Both the position numbers and the translations under genes were made by a program. Below are positions 4,299 to 40,300 of a stretch of 64,000 bases of DNA, piece by piece. The notes beneath the pieces were generated by a model. It was given only the letters and a program-made list of their open reading frames with translations, ran no database searches and had not been told where the DNA came from. Source of the stretch: Wolfiporia cocos (taxonomy: Eukaryota > Basidiomycota > Agaricomycetes > Polyporales > Phaeolaceae); the NCBI GenBank assembly GCA_029448655.1, contig JACCLO010000001.1, positions 2,728,001-2,792,000 of the forward strand, in the 5' to 3' direction. The stretch's first letter is position 1; each line of letters begins with the position of its first letter.

Positions 4299-4543
4299 AT
4301 TTCTTCGCCTAGTGTGCATGCCCTGCTCGCTTTCTTTGTCAGTCCATACACTCGCATATTGTATAATAGCAGTAAAGCTCACTATGTTGGCCTTGGTTCG
4401 CTCCACGCCATTCATGCGATTGCAGTTCACATGGGGCATTTTGCTCTAGGCTAGGTTAGACAATACTAGTTCTGCTTATTGTCTAAGACAGTTCACTACA
4501 GGCATCAATTCCTCAGAAAGCCAATGAATCACAGTCCTGCGGT

Positions 4544-4877
4544 CCATCGTTGGCCAGGGTATGTTCGCTCTACCCGCTCGTTGCACGCATGGACAGATAT
4601 CTATACCTCGTCAGCAGAATCCCAGTCATCTGTGACGACACCTACTCCAATAAATCGTGGTCCATCGTCGGTCAGGGTATGTTCGCTCTACCTGCTTGTT
4701 GCATGCACGGACCGATATCTATACCTCGTCAGCAGAATCCCAGTCATCTGCAACGGTACCTACTCCAATAAATCGTGGTCCATCGTCGGTCAGGGTATGT
4801 TTGCTCTACCTGCTCGTTGCACGCACGGACCGATATCTATACCTCGTCAGCAGAATCCAACTTATCTGCGACGACAC
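4544..4877. repeat. 118-bp tandem repeat, about 2.8 units
   Basis: Units start with CCATCG at 4544, 4662 and 4780, giving a period of 118 bp. The second and third units are nearly identical (GGTCAGGGTATGTT, TATCTATACCTCGTCAGCAG). Because 118 is not a multiple of three, the array yields similar overlapping open frames in all plus-strand frames, which should not be read as genes. Confidence 0.85.
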
Positions 4878-5350
4878 TGTCACAACTTTTCCGGTAACGC
4901 CCCTCATTATATGATTACTGGGGGTTGAACTCACGACCTAGGGACTCGCCGTCACGTGCGCGCCCTTACAGGCGCGTATGGACCAGGTAGCTACCCAAGT
5001 AGTTACTTAAAGTATATCACATGATAGATTACGTAACAAGTAGTGTGACCGTTTAGGCGCATGCGCACAAGCCATGCGACTTTAGGGCAAGGGTAGTTAC
5101 TTAGCACTACCATGCTTATCATGTATATATAAACCTAAGAGTCTGAGGCGTACTCCTCAGACTCATCAATTTGGCATTGGCCTTAGGGCTGCCTTTACTC
5201 CATGCCTCGCTGCACTCTTCACTCGCTAGTCTGAAGGAACCTCAACCTCAATAACGACTTAGAGACTGGACATCTATGTCGACTTGGTTGTAGGATGCTG
5301 GCTAAAGGAGCGGGCATATGTGTTGAGGTATGACCCAGAGTATTGGGTCA
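4878..5350 (+). mobile_element. Solo LTR of a third family (473 bp)
   Basis: The sequence starts TGTCACAACTTTTCCGG and ends ATTGGGTCA. The perfect duplication GACAC is present on both sides (4873-4877 and 5351-5355). A TATATATAAA box lies near 5128. A reverse-oriented relative is at 46246-46755. No internal region of this family occurs in the window. Confidence 0.9.
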
Positions 5351-5731: not shown

Positions 5732-5955
5732 TTAGCTTGTGTCTTTGTAGTGAGCGGCAGTCCCACACCGATTTGGATCACGCAGCTTAGCAGAGGCCAT
5801 CTTTTTGCGCTTCAAGCGGGGAGGGCTATTAATTGGGATAGTGCTGCTAGCAACTGCAGAGCGCTCCACAGGTGTGACCGACGACGTCAAGGATGGTGCC
5901 GATGCTGGCTCGGGTTCTACTTGTATGAGTGCAGTGCCTGATGAGGGCTCTGCGT
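5732..5955 (-). pseudogene. 3' fragment of host gene split by E1
   Basis: Reading from 5955 downward, the frame stays open to TAA at 5732-5734. It gives a Ser/Pro/Thr/Ala-rich segment and then a basic stretch (PPRLKRKKMASAKLRD). When E1 and one TGCGT duplication are disregarded, this frame joins that of 14420-14782 without a shift or stop. This shows E1 entered a coding exon. The function was not recognised. The Ser/Pro-rich segment followed by a basic patch could suggest a nuclear protein, which is only a guess. Confidence 0.6.
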
Positions 5956-6664
5956 TGTTATGATTATTTTAATTTTTCGAATATTGACAGAACTCACCAC
6001 CGGGCAAATACGATACAGGGACTTGTTGCGCAACCAACTCCCCTGGCTACTCGTGACTCTACTGGGCGCATCCCCAGTTGTACTAGTCGATAGGGCGCGT
6101 TTCATCTTCGGCAGATCTAACTCTGCCATCGTTTCATGTTCATCGCTCGTTAGCTGATAGATGGCGTTCAACCGCCATCATTCCTAGCTATCGTCTCAGG
6201 TATATCATTACATACCTATCAAACATTTGGTACTATAGCGTAGATAGTATCGGTGACATCTGGGACGAACTTGACCCCTAAAACCCAACGTAGTATATAA
6301 ACCAATGTACTTACTGTCGAGGCTCTTCAGCTCGACCTTGTTGTATAAACAAGAAGTCTTATACTCGTTCTCAAACGTAGGAAACTACGCTCAGTATCTT
6401 TCGCTCGAGCAACCGAATGACTGAGTTCTCGAAGTGCACATTGACTTCTTGAACTTAGGCGAGTCTTATATTCTATTAAGACTTGCACCTGAACAGATTA
6501 TATCCTCTAACGCGTATTGGATATTATACGATCTCCTAGGAACTTCACCTAGGACTTGAAGGCATCTAACGAGCATTTGCCTTGCATACGGCTATACGCC
6601 CACGTGCAGAAGAACGATCTATATTCGCGACTCGAATATACGAACGGGTATTCGACCCGTAACA
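5956..6664 (+). repeat. E1 5' LTR
   Basis: It runs TGTTATGATT to CCCGTAACA, with the short terminal inverted repeat TGTTA/TAACA. The U3 part holds TATATAA at 6294-6300. The predicted RNA start lies about 30 bp further, at AGCTCGACCTT (6329-6339). Confidence 0.97.
6294..6339 (+). promoter_or_regulatory. E1 core promoter and predicted self-primer
   Basis: TATATAA at 6294-6300 is followed 29 bases later by AGCTCGACCTT (6329-6339). That sequence is the exact 11-base complement of AAGGTCGAGCT just after the LTR (6666-6676). In Tf1 of fission yeast the first 11 bases of the RNA anneal to the primer-binding site. The start site here is inferred from TATA spacing. Confidence 0.7.
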
Positions 6665-6710: not shown

Positions 6711-8558
6711 ATGATATTTGGACCAGAATTCCCAGCACGACTGATTGAACTCTTGCCCGAGGACATTCAAGGAGTCTACAGACTCAACCAATACGAGTGG
6801 ACTGACACCATTGGAGCCTTCCGTAACCGCGGAGGAATTGTTGTCATCCCCAGAGAAGATAGGGCATCGAAGTGGGTACAAGTATACCCCTCCGCAGGAA
6901 CGACCGCTTGGGAAATAACACGTGAAGCGTTCGAACGATTCGGAGAAATCCCTCCGATGTCAACCGTGACGTTGACCGAAAACGAAACCGAAACCATCAA
7001 TAGAACCCTCGATGCCGATGGAAATACGAATCAGCCTTCGGGCGCCACAGGAATGGCAGGAATTGAGCGCATCGGAGATGATGGGAGAAATCCTGGAAAC
7101 TTTACAGGAACAGATAACAGCCAGACCGGAGGACAGGACCCTGGAGGATTTATATCTGCTTTTGCGCAGAGTGGGATTGGGTCTATGGCTGGAGGAGCAA
7201 ACCTCTTTGGAAGCCCCCCACAGAACGCACCCGGAATGGGTAGCGGAGGAAATCCGTCTTGGACTAGCCCAAGCGGAGGAATGGGAACGACAAACGCAGG
7301 AACATGGCCTTCAGGCCTATTTGGACGAACCTCCACAGGTACAAGCGGAGGAGGACTGGGAAGAAACTTCGGACTCGGAGGAAGGAATACCCCTCCTCCT
7401 GGAGGACGCGGAGGAGGAACCCCCACAAACCCCGGAGGAGGAAACCCTGGAGGGAACCCAGGGAACCCCGGAGGAAACCCAGGAAACCCGGGTGGAGGAT
7501 ACCCGGGAGGAGGAGGACCCCCAGGAGGGCCTCCACCACCGAATGCGCCGCAGCCTCAACCTCCGGCGCCGAACCCGTACTACCGACCCCCGATGATAAA
7601 GATCAATCCCCCAGACGTATTCGACGGGGAACGATCCGGCATGCAGAACTTCATAAACCAGTGCAATTCCTGGTTTACGATGTACGAAACGTCATTCCAG
7701 AACGACGTTCAGAGAGTGATCTTTATCCTCTCTTATATTTCGAAGAAGGGGAAAACGGGCCAATGGAAACAGAACTATCACCGGGTTTATACGAACCCCC
7801 AGACGAAACGATTCTTCCCGCCTAGTCTTGCACAGTTTGATGCAGACTTCCAGAAAGCCTTCGGAGCCATCGAAGAGGTACAGAAGGCGCGGAAGAAAAT
7901 CCTGGACGTAACCCAGGACAGGAAGGACATCGATGATTATATCACCGAATTCAACAACTTGGCCGGGAAGGCCCAGTACGATCGATACAGCGCGGACGGA
8001 AACGCGTTGCTCATAACCCTCTTTGAGAAAGGGTTACCCGAACATACGACCCGATACATCATCGGCGTTTGGCCGCTACCAGCAACCATTGATGAATGGC
8101 AGTCCGCTGCCTCGTACTATGAAAACACGTACAAGATATTCTTGAAACGGGATAAACCGTTTGTCAAGAAAAAGGCTTGGCAAGCCTCGAACCAGAATAA
8201 CGGACGCACTAGTGCTCCACAGACAACCGCACCAAAAGATCCGAATGCAATGGATGTAGATCGAATGACCACCCAAGAAAGAGATGATCACATCAAGAAG
8301 GGAAAATGTTTCACCTGCCATCAACCAGGACATATGTCGCGAGACTGTCCGAAGAGGCCAAGGAAGCCAGCCCGCCCTAGGCAGACTACTCGAAAGACCG
8401 AAGAAGAAGAAGCCGAGCAAGAAGCTCGCATCGAAGAAGTCTCTGAGGAAGAAACTGAATACATCACCGCCAACAGAGCGGTCACAGCAATTAGGGCTCT
8501 GAAAGCCAAGAACCCCGAGCTCCTAGCACGGCTCGTAGAAGAACAGGATTTTGCCTAG
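6711..8558 (+). CDS. gag: Gag polyprotein, family A (E1)
   Basis: A 615-residue structural protein expected to form cytoplasmic virus-like particles and package the element RNA. Residues about 150-285 are an unusual Gly/Pro/Asn-rich tract with NPGGNPG repeats. The capsid-like helical region follows (about 300-480). A single CCHC zinc knuckle, [14 protein letters not shown], lies near residue 532, followed by a Lys/Arg then Glu-rich tail. The first ATG after the primer site was taken as the start; E4 has the same start and length. The gag stop (TAG, 8556-8558) is followed by pol in the -1 frame. The Gly-rich GGA repeats create long spurious frames on both strands between 7000 and 7830. Confidence 0.93.
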   Translation: MIFGPEFPARLIELLPEDIQGVYRLNQYEWTDTIGAFRNRGGIVVIPREDRASKWVQVYPSAGTTAWEITREAFERFGEIPPMSTVTLTENETETINRTLDADGNTNQPSGATGMAGIERIGDDGRNPGNFTGTDNSQTGGQDPGGFISAFAQSGIGSMAGGANLFGSPPQNAPGMGSGGNPSWTSPSGGMGTTNAGTWPSGLFGRTSTGTSGGGLGRNFGLGGRNTPPPGGRGGGTPTNPGGGNPGGNPGNPGGNPGNPGGGYPGGGGPPGGPPPPNAPQPQPPAPNPYYRPPMIKINPPDVFDGERSGMQNFINQCNSWFTMYETSFQNDVQRVIFILSYISKKGKTGQWKQNYHRVYTNPQTKRFFPPSLAQFDADFQKAFGAIEEVQKARKKILDVTQDRKDIDDYITEFNNLAGKAQYDRYSADGNALLITLFEKGLPEHTTRYIIGVWPLPATIDEWQSAASYYENTYKIFLKRDKPFVKKKAWQASNQNNGRTSAPQTTAPKDPNAMDVDRMTTQERDDHIKKGKCFTCHQPGHMSRDCPKRPRKPARPRQTTRKTEEEEAEQEARIEEVSEEETEYITANRAVTAIRALKAKNPELLARLVEEQDFA

Positions 8559-8647: not shown

Positions 8648-11600
8648 ATGACGCTGGCAAAACCCGTGAAGTGCAATGCACTAATCGACTCAGGAGCAAT
8701 GTCGAACCTGATCCACAGCAGAGTGGTAGAAAAATACAAGGTGCCCACGCAACCCTTGAAAAACCCGATCATTGTCAAAAATGTTGACGGAACAGAAAAC
8801 AAAGATGGGCGAATAGACCGAGAAGCCACCATACTACTACGATATCCGAAGACCCAGAAAACGCGAAAGGTCCGATTCCTGGTAGGATCAATCGGGACAG
8901 AAAATATGATTCTAGGGTATGGATGGCTAAAAGACGAAAACCCCACAATCGACTGGAAGGACCAAACAGTCGATGTACGATCGATACTAGGGGCAGAAGA
9001 AAAGAAACAGGAAGCCACGATCCGAATGGATACGGTGGAGATGGTAGTTGCCCCAGAGGGAAAAATTCCAACAAGGGGGACCCAAGAAGCTGCAGGGTAT
9101 GACCTTTACGCCGCAGAAGAAACCGAGATTCCCGCCGGAGGATGGAAACTCGTCTCTACAGGAGTAAAAATGAAGATCCCAAAGGGATCGTATGGAAGGC
9201 TGGCCGGACGATCAGGCAACACCCTCAGACACGGATTGGTAGTACAAGCCGGAATCATAGACTCGGACTACCGAGGAGACGTCGGAGCCATCGTCTTCAA
9301 CTACTCAGACAAAGCGCATAGAATTATCCCGGGCATGCGAATAGCCCAGATAATTTTCGAACGACACCTCACCCCCGACATCTTAGAGGTCGAAGACCTA
9401 GATGAAACAGAACGAGGGGAGAAAGGGTTCGGATCCACAGACCAGCCAGAAGAAACAGCGCAGCGGCTCTATACTCCCAAAGAATACGAAGCGATCCGAC
9501 GCTTCGCAAAAGATAACCCTAGGATCATAGGAAAGAAAGGGGAAACACGAAAGAAGTTCCGAACAAAGATACAAATCATCAACGCTGTCAGGAAAGCGCT
9601 GACGAAATCCCAGGAATTCGCACAAAAAACCCCCGAACCAGAACGAATGATTGAGGAGATGGTCCCGAAACACCTACTGAACTTCGCCAAGGTGTTCAGT
9701 AAGGAGTCCGCAGCAGCGTTCCCCCCGTCGAGACCATGGGACCACGCAATCGAACTAAAACCCGATTTCGTGCCGAAAGACTGCAAAGTCTATGCACTCT
9801 CGCCTAAAGAGCAACAGGCGTTGGACGAATTCCTAAAAGAAAACTTGGCCAAGGGATTCATAGTCCCTTCAAAATCCCCGATGGCGTCACCATTCTTTTT
9901 CGTCCCAAAGAAAGACAGCGGCCTACGACCCTGTCAAGATTATCGATATCTGAACGAAGGGACGATAAAGAACGTCTATCCCTTGCCGCTGATCTCAGAG
10001 CTCCTGGAAAAGCTAAAAGGAGCAAAGATCTTCACAAAAATGGACCTTAGAGTGGGATACAACAACGTGCGAATCAAAAAGGGAGACGAATGGAAAGCGG
10101 CCTTCAAAACAAACCGAGGGTTGTACGAGCCCACGGTTATGTTTTTCGGATTGTGCAATGCACCCGGGACCTTTCAGGCAATGATGAACGAAATCCTGAA
10201 AGAAGAAATCCTCGAAGGATGGGTGCTTGTTTATATGGACGACATCCTCATTTTCTCAGAAGACGAGAAAATACACAAGGAACGGGAGCGACGGATCCTT
10301 CAGAGGTTGGTGGATAACCATCTCTTTGTGAAACCCGAGAAATGCGCCTTCGGTGTCGACAGAGTCGAATTTCTGGGACTAGTCATCACCCCAGGAAATA
10401 TCCAGATGGACCCAGCAAAACTCAATGGGATTAAGGAGTGGCCGACTCCCCGAAATCTCAAAGAAGTCAGATCCTTCCTAGGATTTGCAAACTTCTATCG
10501 GAAATTTATCGATCACTACTCTACGCACGCCCGACCCTTGGTAGACCTCACAAAAACGGTCACAGGGACAGGATTCCAATGGACGGAGAAAGAACAGACA
10601 GCATTCGAATTCATGAAGAAAGCATTCACGACGGCGCCCGCACTAGGAACACCGGACAAGGAGAAACCGTTCATCCTCGAAACAGATGCATCTCAGTTCG
10701 CCACAGGAGCAGTACTGAAACAGATAGATGAAACAGGGAGCGAACGGCCGGTGGGATATCTCTCACAATCCCTGACACCAACAGAACGGAACTACAAAAT
10801 CTACGATCGCGAACTACTCGGAATAGTCCGAGCATTAGAAGAATGGCGGCACCTATTGGAGGGAGCACCGCATCGGATCTTGATCCGAAGCGATCATCAG
10901 AACCTGACGTACTGGAGAAGCGCACAGCGCCTAAATCGGCGACAAGCGAGATGGCATCTATTCCTTTCGCAATTCGACCTGAAATTACAACACATCCCCG
11001 GAAAGAAACTAGTCATGGCCGACACGCTTTCCAGGTTGTACCACCTGGACAAAAGCAACGAAGACAATGAAGGAATCACCATGATTCCAGACGAACTCGT
11101 CGTCCACGCAATCCAGATCCCGATCATTGATCGAATCAAGAATGCCAACGATCGAGATGAATCTGCGGAACAGGCGATCCGTGCTCTAGGGGGCACAGGC
11201 GAATTCCCCGCGAGAACCACCGCAGATGAATGGCAACAAACGGATGGGATACTGCTCTACAGAGGCAGGATGTACGTGCCAAGGGACGAGGGCCTTCGAC
11301 GGGACGTCATCTCAAAATACCACGACTCGATCCCGGCCGGACACCCTGGGATCTGGGGTACAACAGTACAGGTTACGACCCACTTTTGGTGGCCTGACAT
11401 GAGAACAATGATAACGGAATACGTCCGAGGCTGTGCAATCTGTCAACAGATGAAACCGGATAGGAACCCGCTAAAACCCCCTTTACAACCAATACCGACA
11501 CGGGAAGACGCCCTCCCCTTCTCACAGTGCTCGGTCGATTTTGTCACCGACCTGCCAAGAGTCGGAAAGTATGACTCCATGATGGTGATTGTCGACCACG

Positions 11601-13147
11601 GCCTATCCAAGGCCATCTCTCTCACCCCATGCGACAAAACGATCACTAGCAAAGGGGCGGCAGAAATATTTCACCGGAAAATCTACTCACTATATGGCAT
11701 CCCCCGAAAGATCATTTCAGACAGAGGACCGCAGTTTGCATCAAAACTTTTCAAGGAATTATGCAAACTGCAGGGAACGGAATCGGCGATGAGTACGGCG
11801 TACCATCCACAGACCGACGGACAGACAGAAAGAATGAATCAACAGATCGAAGTATACCTTCGCATTTATTGCATGAACGACCCGTTCCAATGGGTACAAC
11901 GACTGCCCGACGTCGAATTTGCGCACAACACCAGACGAACCGAAAACCGGCCAGCGCCACTCGAAATAATCTTAGGATACGTCCCGAGAGGATTCCCAGA
12001 CTATGACAGAGTAGGGAACGTCCCGGCAGCGGTCGACAGGATCAAGAAGATCAAAGAGGCGCGAAAGATGGCATTCATCGCGCATGAATTAGCCCAGAAA
12101 AGAATGGCAGGGCGGTTCCTCAGAGAGCTGCCGAAGCTTGAGAAAGGGGATAAAGTCTGGCTCGACGCCAAGAACCTAACGATTCCCTATGAATCAAACA
12201 AACTGGCACCAAAAAGAGAAGGACCCTTCACCATCACAGAAAAGATAGGACCAACGACATACCGACTACAGTTACCGGCGAATTGGAAAATTCATCCGGT
12301 CTTCCATGCTGCCTTACTAAAACCATTCAAAGAAACAAGGGTACACGGACCCAATTACCTACGGCCGCCACCTGATATCATCAAGGGACAAGAAGAATAC
12401 GAAGTCGAAGCCATCTTGGCTGACAGATGGCAAAGAAAGAAGCATCAATACTTCGTCAAGTGGAAAGGCTATGCCACGGCCGACAACTCATGGGAGGATG
12501 AGGGGAACTTGGAGCACTCCAAGGAGCTGATAAAAGACTACCACAGGACGAGAGTCAGGACAACCCCGACACTCGAAAGTAGGACAGTAATAGTATGTCG
12601 ACGACTCGCCACCAGCTCCCCCGCCGTACCACAACCCCCGGCGATGCAGATCGTCGAGAAGGCCGACCGCGAGGTACGCCACCAAGAAGGTACTCCCCCC
12701 AGCATCTACAGATTAGACACGCCCTCCTCTGGTACAGGGCCGAGGGACCTTTTGCTGGCCGAGCCGATGGCTGGTCGGCCCTCTTCGACATCGCGCAGGA
12801 CCTCACCCACGTTTACAGCTCGTACCAGAACATCACCGAGGACCTCGTCCGAATGGAGGGGCAGATCAGAGCGCAGAGAGAGGGACTCGAGCTACTCACC
12901 GACAGACTTATCGACCGATTGGCCGCCACTACAACGGCCCGACTACGACACGCGCTCAACGACTTCGAGGATCGCGAGCACGTTACTCCCAGTCGACCCG
13001 AATACACACCACGACCCGCCCGCTTTTTCACCCCCGACGAACGACGCCGAGTTGCAAGGCCGTTTGATTTTATGGAGGGCGATAGAGTATTATTTCCTCT
13101 GCCTACCGAGACTCAGAGGGCCCGCCGAACAGGAGTTAGAGACCTGA
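8648..13147 (+). CDS. pol: Pol polyprotein with dUTPase and chromodomain, family A (E1)
   Basis: A polyprotein of 1499 residues from the first ATG; the frame is open upstream to the gag end. Domains in order: aspartic protease (LIDSGAMSN, about 12-22); dUTPase (about 145-268) with all five motifs [38 protein letters not shown] and [10 protein letters not shown]; reverse transcriptase with YMDDILIF near 528; RNase H with ETDAS near 675; integrase with an HHCC finger (about 893-930) and D, D, E near SVDF, DRGPQF and TDGQTER (about 963-1061); chromodomain [12 protein letters not shown] to WEDE (about 1250-1292). The low-complexity tail after the chromodomain overlaps ORF3. It stops at TGA 13145-13147, where E4 has CGG. 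A dUTPase between protease and RT is unusual; retroviral dUTPases sit elsewhere. Confidence 0.95.
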   Translation: MTLAKPVKCNALIDSGAMSNLIHSRVVEKYKVPTQPLKNPIIVKNVDGTENKDGRIDREATILLRYPKTQKTRKVRFLVGSIGTENMILGYGWLKDENPTIDWKDQTVDVRSILGAEEKKQEATIRMDTVEMVVAPEGKIPTRGTQEAAGYDLYAAEETEIPAGGWKLVSTGVKMKIPKGSYGRLAGRSGNTLRHGLVVQAGIIDSDYRGDVGAIVFNYSDKAHRIIPGMRIAQIIFERHLTPDILEVEDLDETERGEKGFGSTDQPEETAQRLYTPKEYEAIRRFAKDNPRIIGKKGETRKKFRTKIQIINAVRKALTKSQEFAQKTPEPERMIEEMVPKHLLNFAKVFSKESAAAFPPSRPWDHAIELKPDFVPKDCKVYALSPKEQQALDEFLKENLAKGFIVPSKSPMASPFFFVPKKDSGLRPCQDYRYLNEGTIKNVYPLPLISELLEKLKGAKIFTKMDLRVGYNNVRIKKGDEWKAAFKTNRGLYEPTVMFFGLCNAPGTFQAMMNEILKEEILEGWVLVYMDDILIFSEDEKIHKERERRILQRLVDNHLFVKPEKCAFGVDRVEFLGLVITPGNIQMDPAKLNGIKEWPTPRNLKEVRSFLGFANFYRKFIDHYSTHARPLVDLTKTVTGTGFQWTEKEQTAFEFMKKAFTTAPALGTPDKEKPFILETDASQFATGAVLKQIDETGSERPVGYLSQSLTPTERNYKIYDRELLGIVRALEEWRHLLEGAPHRILIRSDHQNLTYWRSAQRLNRRQARWHLFLSQFDLKLQHIPGKKLVMADTLSRLYHLDKSNEDNEGITMIPDELVVHAIQIPIIDRIKNANDRDESAEQAIRALGGTGEFPARTTADEWQQTDGILLYRGRMYVPRDEGLRRDVISKYHDSIPAGHPGIWGTTVQVTTHFWWPDMRTMITEYVRGCAICQQMKPDRNPLKPPLQPIPTREDALPFSQCSVDFVTDLPRVGKYDSMMVIVDHGLSKAISLTPCDKTITSKGAAEIFHRKIYSLYGIPRKIISDRGPQFASKLFKELCKLQGTESAMSTAYHPQTDGQTERMNQQIEVYLRIYCMNDPFQWVQRLPDVEFAHNTRRTENRPAPLEIILGYVPRGFPDYDRVGNVPAAVDRIKKIKEARKMAFIAHELAQKRMAGRFLRELPKLEKGDKVWLDAKNLTIPYESNKLAPKREGPFTITEKIGPTTYRLQLPANWKIHPVFHAALLKPFKETRVHGPNYLRPPPDIIKGQEEYEVEAILADRWQRKKHQYFVKWKGYATADNSWEDEGNLEHSKELIKDYHRTRVRTTPTLESRTVIVCRRLATSSPAVPQPPAMQIVEKADREVRHQEGTPPSIYRLDTPSSGTGPRDLLLAEPMAGRPSSTSRRTSPTFTARTRTSPRTSSEWRGRSERRERDSSYSPTDLSTDWPPLQRPDYDTRSTTSRIASTLLPVDPNTHHDPPAFSPPTNDAELQGRLILWRAIEYYFLCLPRLRGPAEQELET

Positions 13148-13638
13148 CGCCACGTATTCCTGGTATGGGAGGCAACGGGAGACGTGAACCACCTGCACGC
13201 CCGACGAGCCCTAGGGCTACCCCAGCGCGACAGCGAAGAGCGAATAGCACGCTGCCTATTCGACGATCTCCGTCGGTGCAGAGCATTACCCGCGAGGAGT
13301 TTGAGCGAGGTGTGAGGGAGCACGAACGAGACACCGCCTCCCTACCCACATGGGCCGCACGGAACCTCCACCGAGCCGCACACCACTGGAGGTACCAACA
13401 TAACGAATACCTCCGCGATATCCCTTCCCTACGGGTACCAGCGAGGCCCTCACCTGAACAGCCATGTCGACAATGTGGCTCCGCTAACCACTGGATCCTC
13501 GACTGCCCCGATTATATTTGCAGAACTTGTGGGCTCAATCAACCAGGTCATCGACAGAATGAATGCCGCCAACACTTCGTATGGCGAACTCCTACGACCC
13601 CGTCCCTCAGCGGGAACGGCGACATCTACAACGAATAG
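12595..13638 (+). CDS. ORF3: zinc-knuckle protein overlapping the 3' end of pol
   Basis: A 347-residue frame offset from pol, starting MSTTRHQLP just after the chromodomain. Residues about 60-125 resemble a helical or coiled-coil segment (LFDIAQDLTHVYSSYQNITE onward). An Arg/Pro-rich linker follows, then a helical stretch SITREEFERG and two zinc knuckles at about 290-325: CRQCGSANHWILDC (CX2CX4HX4C) and CRTCGLNQPGHRQNEC (CX2CX6HX4C). Family B ORF3 matches in start (MSTP), coiled region, knuckles and end. Comparing E1 with E4 over the overlap, I count about 16 residue changes in this frame against about 27 in the pol frame, so this frame seems the more constrained. The TAG after DIYNE is probably a small truncation, since E4 continues to DAEAL. 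The knuckles suggest nucleic-acid binding; the role is unknown. Confidence 0.75.
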   Translation: MSTTRHQLPRRTTTPGDADRREGRPRGTPPRRYSPQHLQIRHALLWYRAEGPFAGRADGWSALFDIAQDLTHVYSSYQNITEDLVRMEGQIRAQREGLELLTDRLIDRLAATTTARLRHALNDFEDREHVTPSRPEYTPRPARFFTPDERRRVARPFDFMEGDRVLFPLPTETQRARRTGVRDLTPRIPGMGGNGRREPPARPTSPRATPARQRRANSTLPIRRSPSVQSITREEFERGVREHERDTASLPTWAARNLHRAAHHWRYQHNEYLRDIPSLRVPARPSPEQPCRQCGSANHWILDCPDYICRTCGLNQPGHRQNECRQHFVWRTPTTPSLSGNGDIYNE

Positions 13639-13698
13639 GACGCCGAGGCACTCTGAAGAGAGGAACTTGGAAAATTCGCCGAGGCCGACGAATGCCTA

Positions 13699-13710
13699 GG
13701 GAGGGGCTGA
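13699..13710 (+). other. E1 polypurine tract
   Basis: The purine-rich GGGAGGGGCTGA lies directly before the 3' LTR, the normal place for the plus-strand DNA primer. E4 has the same sequence next to its 3' LTR. Confidence 0.7.
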
Positions 13711-14419
13711 TGTTATGATTATTTTAATTTTTCGAATATTGACAGAACTCACCACCGGGCAAATACGATACAGGGACTTGTTGCACAACCAACTCCCCTG
13801 GCTACTCGTGACTCTACTGGGCGCATCCCCAGTTGTACTAGTCGATAGGGCGCGTTTCATCTTCGGCAGATCTAACTCTGCCATCGTTTCATGTTCATCG
13901 CTCGTTAGCTGATAGATGGCGTTCAACCGCCATCATTCCTAGCTATCGTCTCAGGTATATCATTACATACCTATCAAACATTTGGTACTATAGCGTAGAT
14001 AGTATCGGTGACATCTGGGACGAACTTGACCCCTAAAACCCAACGTAGTATATAAACCAATGTACTTACTGTCGAGGCTCTTCAGCTCGACCTTGTTGTA
14101 TAAACAAGAAGTCTTATACTCGTTCTCAAACGTAGGAAACTACGCTCAGTATCTTTCGCTCGAGCAACCGAATGACTGAGTTCTCGAAGTGCACATTGAC
14201 TTCTTGAACTTAGGCGAGTCTTATATTCTATTAAGACTTGCACCTGAACAGATTATATCCTCTAACGCGTATTGGATATTATACGATCTCCTAGGAACTT
14301 CACCTAGGACTTGAAGGCATCTAACGAGCATTTGCCTTGCATACGGCTATACGCCCACGTGCAGAAGAACGATCTATATTCGCAACTCGAATATACGAAC
14401 GGGTATTCGACCCGTAACA
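13711..14419 (+). repeat. E1 3' LTR
   Basis: 709 bp, matching the 5' LTR except at two positions by eye (TTGCACAACC for TTGCGCAACC, and ATTCGCAACTC for ATTCGCGACTC). Target duplication TGCGT follows. Confidence 0.97.
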
Positions 14420-15206
14420 TGCGTGGGACTGTTGCGCGACCAAGACAAGGGCGGTCGGCAACCGCGAGGGAGTGGGTGACAACACCAGCGCCGCCTCGAG
14501 TTCTGGTGATGGCACCGGCGAGCTTGCCAACTCCGTTGCACCCTCAGTTTCAAGTGGCGCGAGTGCCACGGTCGGTGAGGGCGCAGCATGGATCTCTGGC
14601 GTCTCCGTCCCAAGGGCAGCTGGGGATGGCACAGGCGGACTGGTGGACAACAGCGATCTCCGATCGGCTTCTTCCATAAGTGCGGTAACTCCCGAGTCCG
14701 TCAACGGCAAGGACGAAGTTTCTATTCCCGTGGCGGGTACATCTCGCATTGAGGGAGCGGCTAGTATCTGCTTGTTAGCCATCAGCTAATCCCAGGACGA
14801 ATCACTTACGATCGAAAATGTCCTGGCCAAAGCGGAACAGGGTACCACATATATGTCCTAGCGTCAAGCCCGCTTCTTTGCGCAGTGTCTGTTCAAAATC
14901 TTGGTTTGCGTGGTTTGAACCCATATTGTGACTAGTACGTTGTTAGTAAACTTCCCACCCAGTGTGCGGTGGACTCACGTGTACGTTGTAACATAGCCAT
15001 TCTCATCCAGTCCGGTCATCATGATTGTGCCCACCCAGCCCGTTTGCTTCTCCCAATGCTCCGCCGTCAGCCGAATCACGGTCTCCATTCCAGCCGCCCT
15101 TCTGTATGGCTATCAACAAGAATATCACGGCGCGCTGGAATCACCACTCACCTTGCGCATTCATACTCTTCGGTACCTAGCTTTGCCTCCATCTCTACAG
15201 GCGTAT
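14420..15206 (-). pseudogene. Middle exons of host gene(s) between E1 and E2
   Basis: On the minus strand, exons can be placed at 15152-15206, 14979-15109, 14810-14931 and about 14420-14771. GT-AG introns separate them, one with a TACTAAC branch site. The early exons include ETVIRLTAEHWEKQTGWVG and EAGLTLGHICGTLFRFGQDI. The last is acidic and Ser/Pro-rich and runs into E1. The 15206 side joins 24994 in frame when E2 is disregarded. The splice into the last exon does not resolve cleanly, and an ATG at 14780-14782 could start a separate gene. The family was not recognised. Confidence 0.55.
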
Positions 15207-15748: not shown

Positions 15749-16478
15749 TCACCCCCCCTCAAGCCTTCATCGCCCTCGATGAAATCCAAGCATCACGGCC
15801 ACTCAAAGGGCCTCCGGGTCGGGGTCGTTGTATCCCGCATCTGTATCGGGGAGCGGAGGTGTCGGAGGGGGATCCATACCTGATAGAGGGCGCATTCGCC
15901 GACACGATGTCCTGGCTGTGTGACTCTGCAGGTGGGGCATCTGTAGTCGGGACAGTCGAGGATCCAATGCCAGGGGCTCCCGCATCGACGACAGGGTTCT
16001 TCGGCAGATGGTCGAGGTGGTGAGCGAGCTGAGGGGACGGCGCGAAGATACTCTCCTGACTCGTACCGCTGGTGGTGGTGGTGGGCCCAGAGACGCTGTC
16101 TGAGCCAGGTAGGCAGCTGGTAGAGGGATTCGTCCCATCCGTCCCTCCCTCGCTCCCACTCCTCCCGGGTAATGATCTCAACTGATGGAGATCTGTTGCT
16201 AACTCCGTTGCTAGCAGCTGCAGAGGTCGGCGAGGGGGGAGCCCTACCATCGCCCGACCCCTCTCGAACTGGGTGTCGTTCATCGTCTCATGGATGCGGA
16301 GGAGGGCGCGCTGATTCTCGAGGTCGAGGTCCTGCGGGGGCGGTCGGTACGGCAGCGTCGCGAGGTACCACATGACTGTATTCCATAAAATCGAATGGTT
16401 CTGCGATTCGATCCAGTTCGCCGTCGTCGAGTAACCAGGGGGGCATGGCTGGGACAGGGCTTCGCATTCGTGGTAAGC

Positions 16479-17038
16479 TGTCACAGAATTCCCAGTGGGG
16501 GGTTCTACATTCCTTCGCTACAGGTATTATAGGCGCCGCTAGGTGCGCGCGCGCTTCCCTGATCCTCAGCCACCTCCAGCGCCCGTCCAGGACTCTATTT
16601 AGATCATCTGACCATAGGTTAGCGCTGTAGGGTAGCGCGCATCTTAGGTACTCACGTTAGGGTCACACCGTCCACAATGTCGTCACACATAGTTACATAT
16701 CATGTGCCCTTGTAGTTACTGCGCTCGGACCGCGACTTTAGGGCGACCATTACTGGTCAGCTATACATGTATAAGTACGACAAGATGGGGACTTACTTCC
16801 CCATCTTTAGGATTCTCGACAACTGAGCTTAGGCTCCTTTCTCATCTGCGTTTGTGTGCGTCTCTGCCCCGGGGGCCCTCCACGACTTGCTTGTCTGTGT
16901 GTCTTCCCTCTTGGTCGCCTTAGGAGTTCCCCCTTGGGGATACAGCCGACTGGCTGCCTTGTGGTTAGCACACCGCCCTGTAGGACGTCTAGGGACTCCC
17001 CTGTAGCCAGGGTCCCACAAACCTGTGAGTTTGTGTCA
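16479..17038 (+). repeat. E3 5' LTR
   Basis: It runs TGTCACAGAATT to GTTTGTGTCA. TATAAG at 16770-16775 lies 32 bases before CATCTTTAGGAT (16802-16813), the predicted RNA start and self-primer. Confidence 0.93.
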
Positions 17039-17040
17039 TA

Positions 17041-17052
17041 ATCCTAAAGATG
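17041..17052 (+). other. E3 primer-binding site, self-priming type
   Basis: ATCCTAAAGATG, two bases after the 5' LTR, is the exact 12-base complement of CATCTTTAGGAT at the predicted RNA start (16802-16813). The sequence differs from that of families A and B, but the geometry is the same. Confidence 0.7.
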
Positions 17053-17801
17053 TTTTACCTCCCCTCCGGCGCCACTTGCGCTGGGGCCGAGGGTTTTTCA
17101 CTCGCAGGTCGCCAAGGCAACGCGGCGGGGCAGCCTCTTGGGAGAAGACCCAGAGGTCCGTAGATTTACGAGCCCCCATCTAAGCGTTACACCTGGCAAA
17201 GCGGCCGCGAGGAGTAAAAAGCAAGTCCGCCCCCCATGAACAACAGGGTAGCGGGGTCAACAGGTATAAGCCGCGTTCAGGGCCCGCCGCCGTCACCCCT
17301 GCAAAGGGAATGTACGCGCGCGTGGAGGCACAGTGCATCCTCGCCATCACCCCTGGGCGGCAGGAGTCAGCTCAAGATCCTTGACCTGTGGGTATGCGAA
17401 GGGAACCCGCGAGGGTCTCCCAACCCCACACCGACGGTCAACAAGATGAATATAGAAAATCGACTAGGTACTTAATCGACGAGGACCCAGCATAGTCGGA
17501 GGTCGGTGGGCCACCCCAAGCTATGTCGGCGCACGCCAGGAATGATGGATGAGCATCACCCAAGCGCCTCTACGCTCACCGCTGGTAACGGCTCGCCCAT
17601 TCACGTCAGACATGTAAGAGAAGAGAGAAGCTCCTCTGCATGGTCATCCTCCTTCGCACACCCACTGGCGGACAGGACCGCCGATGACTGGAACTTCCAC
17701 CTGGGGGCGCAGGTGCCAGACATCAAAACTCAACCAAAGGAATGTCGCGTCGTAGGTTATAGGTACAACGTCGGGACGACGTTTTTTGAGAGGGGGGGTA
17801 A

Positions 17802-18361
17802 TGTCACAGAATTCCCAGTGGGGGGTTCTACATTCCTTCGCTACAGGTATTATAGGCGCCGCTAGGTGCGCGCGCGCTTCCCTGATCCTCAGCCACCTCC
17901 AGCGCCCGTCCAGGACTCTATTTAGATCATCTGACCATAGGTTAGCGCTGTAGGGTAGCGCGCATCTTAGGTACTCACGTTAGGGTCACACCGTCCACAA
18001 TGTCGTCACACATAGTTACATATCATGTGCCCTTGTAGTTACTGCGCTCGGACCGCGACTTTAGGGCGACCATTACTGGTCAGCTATACATGTATAAGTA
18101 CGACAAGATGGGGACTTACTTCCCCATCTTTAGGATTCTCGACAACTGAGCTTAGGCTCCTTTCTCATCTGCGTTTGTGTGCGTCTCTGCCCCGGGGGCC
18201 CTCCACGACTTGCTTGTCTGTGTGTCTTCCCTCTTGGTCGCCTTAGGAGTTCCCCCTTGGGGATACAGCCGACTGGCTGCCTTGTGGTTAGCACACCGCC
18301 CTGTAGGACGTCTAGGGACTCCCCTGTAGCCAGGGTCCCACAAACCTGTGAGTTTGTGTCA
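17802..18361 (+). repeat. E3 3' LTR
   Basis: 560 bp, identical by eye to the 5' LTR. Followed by target duplication TAAGC. Confidence 0.93.
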
Positions 18362-18763
18362 TAAGCGGGGCGGGCCCGCTTCGACCTCTGCGAACGCTCG
18401 CCGGATTTGCGATGGTGTCGACGCCCCGAGGTGGTCGATCCACTGACTGATGCACCGCCCGAGCCTCTGTCGCTGGAGGAGGGCTGTGCGCTCGAGTTGG
18501 ACGATCCTCTCTGTAACGTCCTGGTACTGGTCGAAGATGTCGGTGAGTTCCTGTACGAGTTCAAATTGATCGGTCCAGGGGGTCGCTTGCCCTCCGGGGG
18601 GGATGTCGGATCTGTGCCAGGTGAGCGTGTGTCTGGTGCGGACGTGGGCATCCTTCGAACAGCCGTAACACCTGCCTGTCTGGTATCCCATGCGGAGGGA
18701 TCGCCGCATCGTCGGGGCGGTGGGTCGCTCAGACGGGCTGGTTGTAGGGAGTGGCGTCGACAT

Positions 18764-26838: not shown

Positions 26839-29800
26839 CTAGGCATTCGTCGGCCTCGACGAATCATCCAAGTCCCCCTCCTCAGAGTGCCTCGGCATCC
26901 TGCTCGTTGTAGATGTCGCCGTTCCCGCTGAGGGACGGGGTCGTAGGAGTTCGCCATACGAAGTGTTGGCGGCATTCATTCTGTCGATGACCTGGTTGGT
27001 TGAGCCCACAAGCTCTGCAAATATAGTCGGGGCAGTCGAGGATCCAGTGGTTAGCGGAACCACATTGTCGACACGGCTGCTCGGGTGAAGGTCTCGCTGG
27101 TACCCGTAGGGAAGGGATATCGCGGAGGTATTCGTTATGTTGGTACCTCCAGTGGTGTGCGGCTCGGTGAAGGTTCCGTGCTGCCCATGCGGGTAGGGAG
27201 GTGGTGTCTCGTTCGTGCTCCCTCGCACCTCGCTCAAACTCCTCGCGGGTAATGCTCTGCACCGAAGGAGATTGTCGAATAGGCGGCGTGCTATTCGCTC
27301 TTCGCTGTCACGCTGGGGTAGCCCTAGGGCTCGTCGGGCGTGCAGATGGTTCATGTCGCCTGTCGCTTCCCACACCAAGAATACGCGGCGCCGGGTCTCT
27401 AACTCCTGTTTGGCGGGCCCTCTGAGTCTCGGTAGGCAGTGGAAATAGTACTCGATCGCGTTCCATAAAATTAAACGGCCTTGCAACTCGGCGTCGTTTG
27501 TCGGCGGTAAAAAAGCGGGCGGGTCGTGGTACGTATTCGGGTCGGTCGGGAGCAACGTGCTCGCGATCCTCGAAGTCGTTGAGTGCGTGTCGTAGTCGGG
27601 CCGTTGTAGTGGCGGCCAATCGGTCGAAAAGTCTGTCAGTGAGTAGCTCGAGTCCCTCTCTCTGCGCTCTGATCTGCCCCTCCATTCGGACGAGGTCCTC
27701 GGTGATGTTCTGGTATGAGCTGTAAACGTGGGTGAGGTCCTGCGCGATGTCGAAGAGGGCCGTCCAGCTATCAGCTCGGCCAGCAAAAGGTCCCTCGGCC
27801 CTGTACCAGAGGAGGGCGTGTCTAATCTGTAGGTGCTGAGGAGAGTGCCTCCGTGGAGGCGTACCTCTTGGTCGTCCTTCTCGACGGCCTGCGTCGTCGG
27901 GGGTTGCGATGCGTCGGGGAAGCTGGTGGCGAGTCGTCGACATACTATTACTGTTCGCCTTTCGAGTGTCGGGGTTGTTCTGACTCGCATTCGGTGGTAG
28001 CTTTTTATCAACTCCTTGGAATGCTCCAAGTTCGCCTCGTCTTCCCATGAGTTGTCGGCCGTGGCATAGCCTTTCCACTTGACGAAGTATTGATGCTTCT
28101 TTCTTTGCCATCTGTCAGCCAAGATGGCTTCAACTTCGTATTCTTCTTGTCCCTTAATGATATCAGGTGGCGGCCGTAGGTAATTGGGTCCGTGTACCCT
28201 TGTTTCTTTGAATGGTTTTAGTAAGGCAACGTGGAAGACCGGATGAATTTTCCAATTTGCCGGTAACTGCAGCCGGTATGTCGTGGGTCCCATCTTTTCT
28301 GCGATGGTGAAGGGTCCTTCTCTTTTTGGTGCCAGTTTGTTCGATTCATAGGGGATCGTTAGGTTCTTGGCGTCGAGTCAGACCTTGTCCCCTTTCTCAA
28401 GCCTTGGCAGTTCCCTAAGGAACTGCCCTGCCATTCTTTTCTGGGCTAATTCATGCGCGATGGAAGCCATCTTTCACGCCTCCTTGATTTTCTTGATCCT
28501 GTCAACTGCTGCCGGGACGTTTCCTACTCTGTCGTAGTCTGGAAATCCTCTTGGGGTGTATCCCAAGATTATTTCAAGCAGTGCAGGTCGATTTTCAGTT
28601 CGTCTTGTGTTATGTGCAAATTCGACGTCAGGTAGTCGTTGTACCCACTGGAAAGGGTCGTTCATGCAATAGATGCGAAGGTATACTTCGATCTGTTGAT
28701 TCATTCTTTCTGTCTGTCCGTCGGTCTGTGGATGGTACGCCGTACTCATCGCTGATTCTGTTCCCTGCAGCTTGCATAATTCCTTGAAAAGCTTTGATGC
28801 AAACTGCGGTCCTCTGTCTGAAATGATCTTTCGGGGGATGCCATATAGCGAGTAGATTTTCCGGTGAAATATCTCTGCCGCCCCTTCGCTAGTGATCGTC
28901 TTGTCGCATGGGGTGAGAGAGATGGCCTTGGATAGGCCATGGTCGACAATCACCATCATGGAGTCATACTTTCCGACTCTTGGCAGGTCGGTGACAAAAT
29001 CAACCGAGCACTGTGAGAAGGGGAGGGCGTCTTCCCGTGTCGGTATTGGTTGCAAGGGGGGTTTCAGCGGATTCCTATCAGGTTTCATCTGTTGACAGAT
29101 TGCACAGCCCCGGACGTATTCCGCTATCATTGTTCTCATGTCAGGCCACCAAAAGTGGGTCGTAACCTGTACTGTTGTACCCCAGATCCCAGGGTGTCCG
29201 GCTGGGATCGTGTCGTGGTATTTTGAGATGACGTCCCGTCGAAGGCCCTCGTCCTTTGGCACGTACATCCTGCCCCTGTAGAGCAGTATCCCATCCGTTT
29301 GTTGCCATTCATCTGCGGTGGTTCTCGCGGGGAATTCGCCTGTACCCCCTAGAGCACGGATCGCCTGTTCCGCAGATTCATCTCAATCGTTGGCGTTCTT
29401 GATTCAATCAATGATCGGGATCTGGATTGCATGAACAACGAGTTCGTCTGGAATCATGGTGATTCCCTCGTTGTCTTCGTTGCTTTCGTCCAGATGGTAC
29501 AACCTGGAAAGTGTGTCGGCCATGATTAGTTTCCTTCCAGGGACGTGCTGCAATTTCAGGTCGAATTGCGAAAGGAATAGATGCCATCTCGCTTGTCGCC
29601 GATTTAGGCGCTGTGCGCTTCTCCAGTACGTCAGGTTCTGATGATCACTTCGGATCAAGATCCGATGTGGTGCTCCTTCCAATAGGTGCCGCCATTCTTC
29701 TAATGCTCGGACTATCCCGAGTAGTTCGCGATCGTAGATTTTGTAGTTCCGTTCTGTTGGTGTCAGGGATTGTGAGAGATATCCCACCGGCCGTTCGCTC

Positions 29801-36205: not shown

Positions 36206-37348
36206 ATAATACCCAGAGATAAGAGCAGGAGCACTTAAAAAGCAAAGTATTCATACTAGGAACCAGCTACTGCAGCTTAGCCAAAGCCGAACCGTAGCCA
36301 GACTGGACCGTCAATTAGCTGGGAAGCAGAAGCCGATGGTTAGCCATAGCCGCCTGTAAGCTGAGCCGAGCCGAGCCATAGCCGCACCGTCGCAACACTA
36401 GTTGGTAGGGTCATAGCAACTGACGCGCGAACTCCCCTTGGATTCCATCTTGCATCAATAGATGATACTCCTCAGGTGCTCACTCTAGTGTCCGTCAATA
36501 GACGAAGCCCAGCACAAGATGGTCGCAGGAGCTGTATGTGCAGGCCTGTGCAATGTTAGCTAGTAGGTGGCGAAACGAGACTGCTCTGCCACGCCTTCAT
36601 CGAAAGCAAGACCATCAAATCTGATAGTTGACAGAAACGCCAAGCATGTTGCGACGGTGAAACTGTACCCAGGGAGCTCATCAAATTCGAAGCACAAACA
36701 CGAGGACGAGCGCTAAACTGTCATCGGGCAGAATCAAGTACAGCCGTACAAGTATGAGAATGCATCCCAATCGTAATACCATATTGGGAGGGCAGGGCTG
36801 TGAGTGAGGCACTGCAGCAGGACGCACGGGCGTGGCTACTTCTCTGCTCAGCTCACTATGCAGGCGACATAGTCAATATCAGCGTCAATATCAGCGCGGA
36901 CCTCAAAGCATGCGCTCTTACACTCTGGGACTCAGGATGAGATGAGCAAGATTTTTGCAATCCCCTACAGGTCTCTCGTTTGAGCATATATCAATGGCAC
37001 AGGATCTTTACTGAGTTCAACACGGTCAACAAGCCGCCTGCACCTCTACGTAGTTGGCTTCAAACAATCCACGTCACGGTGCAGTTTTGGACTCCATCCA
37101 GCAGCTCTACAGAAGTGGTTTATCTCGAGTTCTGGCCATGGCTCCCAAAATGGTAACACTCAATCGGGATGTATCCTCAAAAGGTGCCATGTATCATGAT
37201 TTTTCGGGAACGATTGCGGCCGTGATGCAGCTCTGATAGCTCTGCCAGTCGTGGGACCTGTTTATAAATCTGTTCTTTGACAGACCCCGTGCACCTGATG
37301 GTTGTCTCGACTCACGATCTCCCTCTTTCCCCCCATATCGTTCATGCG
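36206..37348. other. Upstream region of glutaminase-like gene A
   Basis: From about 36410 the sequence resembles 59040-59500, upstream of gene B (for example GATAGATGATACTCCTCAGG and ACTGCTCTGCCACG). It belongs to the segmental duplication and should hold the promoter. No other gene was recognised. GAGCCGAGCCGAGCCATAG-type short repeats occur near 36360. Confidence 0.5.
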
Positions 37349-40300
37349 ATGCTGCAAAGGTTGATCCTTCATTTCTGCGTGTTCGTCCTGGTATCTCCCA
37401 TCTTGTCTCAAATTGCGGCCCCACAGACATTCTGGCCTGCTGCTCTTCCACTAGCTGTTCGTACTCCATATTTCAAAGCCTGGCAGCCCACAGCCAACGG
37501 GACAACGACGTTGAACACTTGGCCGGAGTTCTGGAATTTTACCTATGTTTGTTCACCTACCATGCATGTTGAACCGGTACTCATGGATCGCAGGGACCAC
37601 TCGGGTGGGCCGGTCACATCAGAGTCGACAACATGACATACAAGTGGCTTGGGCAGAATGACGGAACCTCGCCAGCAAATCTCACGGATGTGCAAGTGAC
37701 ACCAACTCGCACAATTTACTACGTTACTGCTGGTTCAGTAGATTTGAATATCACATTCCTTTCTCCGATCGAGGTAGGCCATACGCTCAAACCGATCTGA
37801 GAGATTGTGAATATTCCGAAATGTCACAGCCATCAGACTGGGTCCGACAGTCCATACCATTCTCTTACATATCACTTGAAGCGAGCTCAAATGACGGGAA
37901 ACTTCATCAAGTGGAAGTATATTCGGATATCAACGGAGGTAAGGACACCTGGTATCTAGCGGTAGGACAAAGGCCCGGGGTTCTCATGATGATTTCGGAA
38001 AGAGTGGCTATCTGGAAATCGATCTGCCCTAATGGAGTGGAGTACGACAACGAACCAACAGAGTGTATTTCACGAGGCTTCATTACAGAATCCTGCTCCT
38101 TTCTCTGAGATTAGTGGCCTGGCAGAGGACGGCAATGTGTTTTATGCTATGTCTCAGGTAGCTCAAACTGGTTTTCCATATGAATATTGATGCTAACGCA
38201 CGTACTGAAGGTATCTGGCATCACATATCAGACAGGCGGGGCCGGGACTGTTCGACCAGCGTTCCAGACCAATGGGTCGCTGACGGACATGTCGGATACG
38301 GATTCCGGAGCTATTAACGAGTATGAAGTACCTTTGTGCTTCATGTGACAGCACTAATCGCTGGATCCAGCGGGTTCCCTGTGTTTGCCATTGCGGTGAA
38401 CCTTGGTCTCATAAAAAGCACTGCGAATCCTGTGGTCTGGGCATTGGGATATGTACGTAATCCCGTCATCAAGTATACCACGCCGACGGGCGAGTCGCAA
38501 CTTCGTTATCCATACTGGGCGACGCAGTATTCGAGCGTATCAGATGTGGTCAGTAGCTATTGCATAAGCAATGAGCCATGCATTCACTCTAATTTAAAGA
38601 TAGAGGAAGTACTGAGCGACTTCACTGCTGCACTCAGTCGAGCTACCGAATTGGATAACCGGGTGATGGCCGCAACATCGAACATTTCCACTGATTATAC
38701 GAATATTGTGTCTCTTGGTGCTCGGCAAGCGTTTGCAGGTATCGACATCACCGTGTCGAATGGCACGGACGGAGCCTGGAATGTGTCGGATGTCAAAATC
38801 TTCATGAAGAATATTGGTACAGACAGGTAAGCACATTTCCGTGGGGGTGAGATCTCCGGTGTGACACCATTGCAATGGATAGGCGGGCGAATCCAGTTGA
38901 AGTGATGTTCGCCGCATATCCGATCTTCTTATATTTCAACTCCTCCTTCTGCAATCCGCTCTTATCCCCCCTCCTGGAGTATGAAGCTTCGAGCTTCTAC
39001 ACCTTACCATATGCAGCATCCGATCTCGGTAAGCAATACAAATGGCATAATTGAACAACTGCATGACACTTCAATCAAGGGAATAATTATCCGATCGCAT
39101 CCGGAGACATCTCGACGCAGCAGGCTGGCGGTGACACGCAGGGTGTCGAACGTGAGCGGCACAGTTAAAGCTCGCGACATGCCTAACACGTAGTTTCATC
39201 TCCCGCCAGAATCCGCGAATATGTTGATCATGGCTCTAGCTGCTGCAAGAGCTTCCGGGGACGGCTCACTGCTTGCTCAATATGTGAGTGTTGATTGGAC
39301 AATTAACCAATAAATCGCTCACCTTGTGGTGCATAGTATACTCTGTTGTCAAACTGGACGAATTATCTGGTGCAGAACTCGGAGGCACCATCAGGCCAGT
39401 ACGTCGGCCATCGTCTCCGATATATAGCGATATAAACAATATGGGAGCAGAGTATCGGCTGATGGACAATCCACCGCAAATATGACAAACCTCGCTATCA
39501 AAGGTATTATTGGAATTCAGGCGATGTCAGAGATCAGTAAAGCCGTTCAAGAGGAGACCGACTCGCAGAAGTTTGCAGTATGCACCTTGTGTATTGTCAG
39601 GAATATAGAATAAGCTCACAATTCACAGAGCACTGCATCGGCATATATGAACAGTTGGAAGTCTCTCGCCCTATCATCCAATCAGCAGAATATACTATTT
39701 GCCTACGATGATTCGGGTAGCTGGGGTCTGATGTACAACTTGTATGCAGATCTTCTGTTGCAGACGCATCTCGTCGATGAAACTGTGAGAGTTACGCACA
39801 AGTTCATATTGACAAATAATAATCGTGATGCTGCGATTGCAGATATACCAAGATCAAACGGCGTTCTATAGCACACTAATCAATGGTGGCTCAGGTGAGC
39901 AACTCGTAGACATCCTAACAGCACATTACTGATTTCGATGATAGCTGGTACATTTGGACTACCTATTGATAGTTTGGATCCCACGGTGGTAAACTCAGGT
40001 ATCTGCCATCAACAACGACTTTTCTATGGCGACATCTGACATCTTTGCAGCGTGGTTAATGTTCACTGCTACCACCACCACCAACGACACAGTGCGCAAT
40101 CAGCTCATCTCGTACGTCTGGGATCATGCTTCGGACAACCTCACGGCTGGTGCATTCCCCACCGTGTACAACGTGAACTCCGGGGCAATCACCCAAAGCT
40201 ATGCAAAGTAAGACCTTGCATTGAGAAGAAGATCTCGTCAAGCTGACGACTTGTGGCATGATAGTCCAGCACAAGGTGCCTTGTTTGCGCCCTTAGCACT

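Follow-up and report, generated by a model that had tools for sequence, protein, structure and literature searches.

A candidate zinc-knuckle protein gene nested within pol of Ty3/gypsy chromodomain retrotransposons of Wolfiporia cocos

The last kilobase of a group of Ty3/gypsy chromodomain elements in Wolfiporia cocos is probably dual-coding, with one of its frames, ORF3, constituting an independent, separately translated, nucleocapsid-like accessory gene. In this arrangement, proposed from the comparison of genomic copies, one frame would carry Pol about 360 residues past its chromodomain and the -1-shifted frame would be ORF3, an independent gene specifying a long helix and two tandem zinc knuckles. 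Translation of ORF3 would start at a conserved AUG of its own, carried by a separate 3' RNA. Its product may oligomerise through the helix and the knuckles may bind element RNA or DNA, so that it would act as a second accessory protein of nucleocapsid type. At the integrase end, a helical module would be contributed by the pol extension.

The host element and the nesting of ORF3 within pol

The element investigated, E1, lies in the window, the whole 64-kb stretch of DNA that was analysed. Its order is gag, PR-RT-RNase H-integrase and a C-terminal chromodomain, flanked by LTRs, as is characteristic of Ty3/gypsy chromodomain elements (Table 1). E1 is a young insertion, since 707 of 709 positions are identical between its LTRs and TGCGT is present at both ends. 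Within Pol, dUTPase occupies residues 138-264 and RT residues 419-579, with weak protease matches at 8-95. The transition from gag to pol is a -1 step and, by eye, GGATTTT is located just before the gag stop, a motif which we take to resemble the MMTV pro-pol site. Rfam models gave no match in the 64-kb window.

Table 1. Features of E1 and of ORF3 copies in the window (window coordinates)
Feature	Position	Strand	Basis or remark
5' LTR of E1	5956..6664	+	identity to 3' LTR 707/709
3' LTR of E1	13711..14419	+	sequence
Target-site duplication of E1, TGCGT	5951-5955 and 14420-14424		sequence
gag of E1, own single zinc knuckle	6711..8558	+	ORF list, Pfam
pol ORF of E1: PR-like, dUTPase, RT, RNase H, integrase, chromodomain, start of extension	8648..13147	+	early end here
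Chromodomain of Pol, E1	12398..12547	+	Pfam E 6.3e-15
pol-frame extension past chromodomain, E1	12596..13699	+	367 codons in relatives; early stops in E1
pol-frame stretch equivalent to ORF3 codons 150-229	13043..13282	+	helices in weak E4-copy model; clearest pol constraint
Polypurine-tract-like stretch directly 3' of pol-frame stop	13700..13710	+	sequence
ORF3 of E1, 347 codons, ATG to TAG	12595..13638	+	relatives' stop six codons later, equivalent of 13654-13656
ORF3 residues 60-128, long helix, coiled-coil-like	12772..12978	+	weak AlphaFold model, block mean pLDDT about 53-63
ORF3 zinc knuckle 1, CX2CX4HX4C, residues 291-304, CRQCGSANHWILDC	13465..13506	+	pattern; Pfam zf-CCHC below cut-off
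ORF3 zinc knuckle 2, CX2CX6HX4C, residues 309-324, CRTCGLNQPGHRQNEC	13519..13566	+	pattern
ORF3 of E4, one in-frame stop	26882..27943	-	pol extension open there to 26839
ORF3 of the window's family-B element	15803..18763	-	broken by nested insertion and one stop

The 347-residue frame with two knuckles claimed in the original prediction is present with the patterns as described, and the same frame was recovered, as claimed, in E4 and in the family-B element, each copy being interrupted as given in Table 1. Across families the ORF3 product has 353-359 residues and is rich in arginine and proline. The AlphaFold models of ORF3 and of the pol extension are weak and helix placement alone was used, with helices at residues 35-50, 60-128 and 233-261 of ORF3 (mean pLDDT 47) and at residues 267-346 of the pol extension, corresponding to ORF3 codons 150-229 (E4 piece, mean pLDDT 36). 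In the profile search originally proposed for ORF3, zf-CCHC was detected at E 0.0012, short of Pfam's cut-off, no Pfam family was obtained at cut-off, and no env family was present among the Pfam matches. The best PDB match, at E 0.028, paired the knuckle part with a Gag polyprotein. Nucleic-acid binding by the ORF3 protein is likely, judging from its motif, its composition and a weak similarity to Gag. ORF3 is an undescribed zinc-knuckle protein. Its openness exceeds chance: with one copy taken per family from three families, none of 20,000 codon permutations attained the observed open length, and 20,000 synonymous shuffles attained it 0, 1 and 0 times.

A similarity search of the assembly (64,431,438 bases, 76 contigs) with ORF3 gave 117 matches, 89 of which lack internal stops, and in 27 of the remaining 28 the internal stops are TGA only, a pattern that decay of methylated CpG would be expected to produce; W. 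hoelen is reported to have CG methylation in the text compared (PMC9503964). The first family-A sample consisted of 40 loci, all drawn from ORF3-ranked matches without an internal ORF3 stop, a choice that favours ORF3. In this sample ORF3 terminates at codon 353 in 37 loci (equivalent to 13654-13656) and at codon 354 in two, with no stop within the stretch in one, and pol terminates at codon 367-368 (equivalent to 13697-13699) in 34, earlier in five and not within the stretch in one. As the ORF3 stop precedes the pol stop, the alignments indicate that ORF3, of about 353 codons, is wholly nested in the -1 frame of pol, within a Pol extension of about 367 codons, and is not a terminal overlap. 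The original prediction that ORF3 merely overlaps the pol 3' end is therefore not upheld, pol of the relatives running past the whole of ORF3. E1 is atypical in that its pol stop (13145-13147) and ORF3 stop (13636-13638) are both early; termination of pol at 13147 was rejected as a feature of the family, because relatives read on to the equivalent of 13697-13699.

Because the choice of the first sample favours ORF3, a second was picked by upstream pol DNA (11500-12094) with ORF3 ignored. The best 40 of 575 candidates, E1 included, yielded 37 usable copies, L091 (interrupted) and L097 and L112 (region absent) being left out. ORF3 is open to at least codon 347 in 29 of these 37 copies, among which L089, carrying an apparent frame-shifting indel, is counted as open by stop position only. 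pol reaches codon 367-368 in 30 of the 37, spanning all of ORF3 and stopping beside the polypurine tract. The same layout is observed in families B and C, in which ORF3 of intact copies ends in DPEAL and pol in EWP. In a joint alignment of 78 loci (44 A, 17 B, 8 C and 9 D; L049, L054, L065 and L068 dropped beforehand), both frames are open for at least 325 codons in 35 of 44 A, 9 of 17 B, 7 of 8 C and 1 of 9 D loci, and both knuckle patterns are present together in 72 of the 78.

Purifying selection in the two overlapping frames

Selection was estimated with a model in which differences are typed by mutation, CpG context and effect in each frame, real copies being compared along minimum spanning trees, free of consensus or ancestor and with each copy's own phase kept. 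On random synthetic sequences (four runs for each setting), selection on ORF3 only returned a pol omega of 0.83-1.08, selection on pol only an ORF3 omega of 0.91-1.08, selection on both 0.22-0.28 each and no selection 0.89-1.18. In the 37 ORF3-blind copies, omega was 0.15 (0.13-0.19; LRT 391) for ORF3 and 0.41 (0.33-0.52; LRT 61) for pol over the overlap, and 0.21 for pol, 1.51 for the ORF3 frame and 0.90 for the third (+1) frame upstream of the ATG. Essentially the same values, 0.17 for ORF3 and 0.42 for pol, were obtained from 18 disjoint pairs, two of them without differences. Thus the overlapping-frame test bears out the original claim in that constraint on ORF3 appears stronger than that on the pol frame over the overlap as a whole. 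Between E1 and E4, over the pol overlap of E1, a script counts 17 differences in ORF3 and 27 in pol, where about 16 and 27 had been noted.

A three-set test was performed on 74 loci (A 44, B 17, C and D 13; L077, L082, L083 and L086 dropped beforehand), the B and C/D loci having been picked by similarity to ORF3 itself. Omega for ORF3 and pol, respectively, was 0.18 and 0.38 in A, 0.26 and 0.63 in B, and 0.35 and 0.58 in C/D, with ORF3-frame upstream controls of 0.79, 1.15 and 1.28. The third (+1) frame upstream, the control matching the place of pol relative to ORF3, gave 1.25 in A, 0.65 in B and 0.66 in C/D; whole-overlap pol omega is therefore lower than its control in A but no lower in B and C/D. 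Within the overlap the third frame gave 1.25-3.24 across the three sets. Both frames are thus constrained beyond controls, as expected of a dual-coding pair, over the whole overlap in family A and in the middle segment everywhere. Combined, these results indicate that ORF3 is a conserved protein-coding gene under strong purifying selection, acting in several families, and that the pol extension is also under selection, over the whole overlap in A and in the middle segment in every set. The original reading of ORF3 as a conserved, constrained gene is accordingly retained in its first part, its complete nesting in a selected Pol extension having been missed.

The position of constraint changes along the overlap. 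In the 37 copies, the ratio of pol-synonymous change to expectation lay between 0.66 and 1.65 in the ten 51-base bins upstream of the ATG, and between 0.04 and 0.79 in the 21 overlap bins. It falls at the ATG itself, from 0.77 in the last bin before to 0.17 in the next. Pol-synonymous change was the highest of the overlap (0.79) in bin +561 to +611, where pol-nonsynonymous change was the lowest (0.04). Omega was estimated in four segments, ORF3 codons 0-60, 60-145, 145-235 and 235-345. In this order, ORF3 gave 0.20, 0.13, 0.33 and 0.09 in family A, 0.21, 0.32, 0.41 and 0.18 in B, and 0.26, 0.35, 0.78 and 0.23 in C/D, and pol gave 0.93, 0.32, 0.25 and 0.37 in A, 0.86, 1.19, 0.26 and 0.43 in B, and 0.64, 0.84, 0.28 and 0.85 in C/D. 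The knuckle segment is the most constrained part of ORF3 in all three sets. In the 37 ORF3-blind copies the two frames are about equal in the middle segment (ORF3 0.42, pol 0.34). Identity between B and C crosses over along the segments, being 81, 73, 60 and 76% in ORF3 and 64, 56, 72 and 45% in pol. These patterns indicate that constraint is parcelled out between the two frames along the overlap, with the middle segment of pol apparently as constrained as ORF3 or more so.

These values render it highly improbable that ORF3 alone codes and that the post-chromodomain pol frame stays open by chance or because it is linked to ORF3. While pol constraint is weak or absent in codons 0-60, including in the 37 copies (0.55), and whole-overlap pol omega equals its control in B and C/D, as this explanation would have it, the middle-segment pol omega of 0.25-0.34 in all four samples, the contrast of 0.04 with 0.79 in bin +561 to +611, and the higher B/C identity of pol than of ORF3 in the middle segment all argue for selection on the pol product.

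Expression of ORF3

The ORF3 ATG is kept in 74 of the 78 aligned loci, with A at -3, a pol wobble position, in all 74; start and knuckles are thus both kept in related families, as had been claimed. The originally proposed expression by internal initiation or from a separate RNA accords best with the sequences, and our best guess is that ORF3 would be expressed from its own AUG on a separate RNA. Production of the same gene from a spliced subgenomic RNA, in the manner of env, and not from an internally started RNA, is a lesser though real possibility. It is the usual route for third ORFs of LTR elements, and it is stated for the ORF3s of bdelloid rotifers (PMC5408684). On the other side, a GTRNGT donor is absent from the LTR and leader of both E1 and E4, although weaker donors outside this pattern could serve, and the 100 bases before the ATG are without synonymous conservation (1.65 and 0.77 of expectation).

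It is unlikely that ORF3, instead of being a free protein, supplies Pol with an alternative C-terminus through -1 ribosomal frameshifting past the chromodomain. Such a fusion would be in keeping with the frame relation, ORF3 standing at -1 to pol just as pol does to gag, with the in-frame tails of at least 90 residues found in 40 of 119 listed relatives with a located chromodomain, and with a CCCCCCG heptamer that 16 of 17 B and 7 of 8 C loci carry at ORF3 codons 54-56. However, scanning 74 loci gave no usable -1 slippery heptamer upstream of the ATG, none of the 44 A loci has the internal CCCCCCG (four of them have CCCTTTG), and in 8 of 44 A loci a stop 5 codons ahead of the ATG closes the ORF3 frame, as does one 16 codons ahead of it in 14 of 17 B loci. 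Frameshifting within ORF3 would, moreover, make no use of the first 55 codons, which are constrained, or of the ATG and its A at -3, which are conserved. Hardly credible is a product in which the ORF3 N-terminus is spliced to a pol-frame C-terminus, as in W. cocos gene models. Of these, P0003 and P0004 proceed from the ORF3 frame to the pol frame with the stretch between skipped, and P0005 switches frame at a different point. The chimera would lose the knuckle part, the most constrained of ORF3 (0.09, 0.18 and 0.23 in A, B and C/D), and by eye the GT donor of the models is not kept in family B. The models mix the two frames because ORF3 is hidden inside pol.

Relatives, origin and significance

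In a whole-protein search, in which the 7,998 candidates sharing most words were scored, the homologues of ORF3 listed were three W. cocos hypothetical proteins, in which the ORF3 frame precedes the pol frame. A search with the knuckle region by itself gave no homologue among 60 candidates, and a viral-contig scan with family-A ORF3 gave no relative; the reach of these searches was annotated proteins with exact words in common, or viral contigs. Among the best 120 of 480 Pol homologues, the chromodomain was located in 119, followed by a tail of at most 6 residues in 54, 7-89 in 25 and at least 90 in 40; P0056, a dUTPase-bearing Pol, ends 6 residues past its chromodomain. The tails of P0035, P0036, P0060 and P0094 resemble readings in the wrong frame. 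A single family accounts for 24 of the 40 long in-frame tails. These 24 tails, from mushroom Ty3/gypsy Pols, occupy the same place as ORF3 and are helix-rich by eye, and one member, P0076, combines a CCHC knuckle with a helical part. Unlike ORF3, however, they are in frame with Pol, and comparison with ORF3 and the pol extension detected no homology (hhalign probability 0.2-0.5%, best blastp E 0.022); membership of either product in this family was therefore rejected. Since the Pols of listed relatives are mostly without a long tail and the 24-member family has no detectable homology, the pol extension and ORF3 look derived in this lineage. GC content in three copies was 0.60-0.65 in the overlap and 0.48-0.58 upstream, and codon usage gave no sign of which frame, ORF3 or pol, is older.

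Among known systems, PosPlaTy3-5 of Postia placenta is, like E1, a basidiomycete Ty3/gypsy element with dUTPase between PR and RT (PMC2864245). The text compared does not contain a nested ORF3, but a figure legend for PosPlaTy3 notes a further ORF, of unknown function, in some element, and this may be one (PMC2864245). LTR retrotransposons of bdelloid rotifers carry ORF3s of env-like, GDSL esterase, DEDDy exonuclease and CC and TM types (PMC5408684), and thus share with E1 an accessory third ORF in dUTPase-bearing elements, in some cases not env-like; in contrast to E1, overlap with pol is unmentioned in the text compared (PMC5408684). Of the titles and abstract openings listed, mostly from outside subscription journals, none reports an ORF that lies within pol of a fungal LTR element. 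A reverse-transcribing element is known in which a long gene is nested in the polymerase gene; its layout alone resembles that of ORF3, the proteins and the element being unrelated.

We lean towards the wider proposition that the whole post-chromodomain kilobase of this high-copy element is a large dual-coding pair of about 350 codons, in which folded modules would alternate from one frame to the other; the searches made gave no match to either product outside Wolfiporia. If so, a single stretch of DNA would supply the element with both a new integrase-end module and a second nucleocapsid-like protein. The usual place of a third ORF in an LTR retrotransposon is downstream of pol, whereas ORF3 would be hidden entirely within pol. 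With more than 100 detected copies of graded divergence in one genome, and with related families alongside, these elements would offer a natural system for studying how overlapping proteins share constraint, and they raise the question of whether similar hidden genes are present in other mushroom Pols with long post-chromodomain tails.

Junction and dUTPase domain of E1 pol

The gag and pol frames of E1, the chromodomain Ty3/gypsy element, overlap, and the GGATTTT at the end of gag is a candidate gag-pol frameshift site, as judged from sequence. In carrying a dUTPase domain in pol, E1 resembles PosPlaTy3-5, in which the domain is reported at the matching place (PMC2864245).

Features in and around the elements
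Feature	Position	Strand	Details
Tandem array	4541-4894		118-base unit, x3
gag/pol frame overlap	8495-8558		-1 relation; GGATTTT immediately 5' of gag stop
dUTPase domain	9059-9439		in E1 pol, after the protease-like part and before RT; Pfam match at E 6.2e-37
Nested insertion	16479-18101		interrupts family-B ORF3
Helitron helicase ORF	49488-53909	minus	intact-looking; PIF1 helicase and Helitron_like_N domains

Repeats and insertions

The insertion in the family-B copy of ORF3, the nested zinc-knuckle frame, is bordered by two identical 300-base stretches spaced 1323 bases apart. Elsewhere, positions 37320-40712 and 59472-62849 repeat one another at 81–91% identity with an offset of ∼22.15 kb, which suggests an old duplication of that part of the window.

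ORF3 N-terminus and tails of related Pols

An additional C-X2-C...H...H-like motif (CYGCSEDAHVRIRH) is observed near the ORF3 N-terminus in families B and C, at residues ∼27–45 in loci L052 and L072, whereas it is absent from family A. Among the listed pol homologues, the tails following the chromodomain in P0035, P0036, P0060, P0094 and P0123 contain many Ser, Thr, Pro and Arg residues. By eye, these tails resemble off-frame readings of another gene, and the five are possibly additional cases of dual coding.
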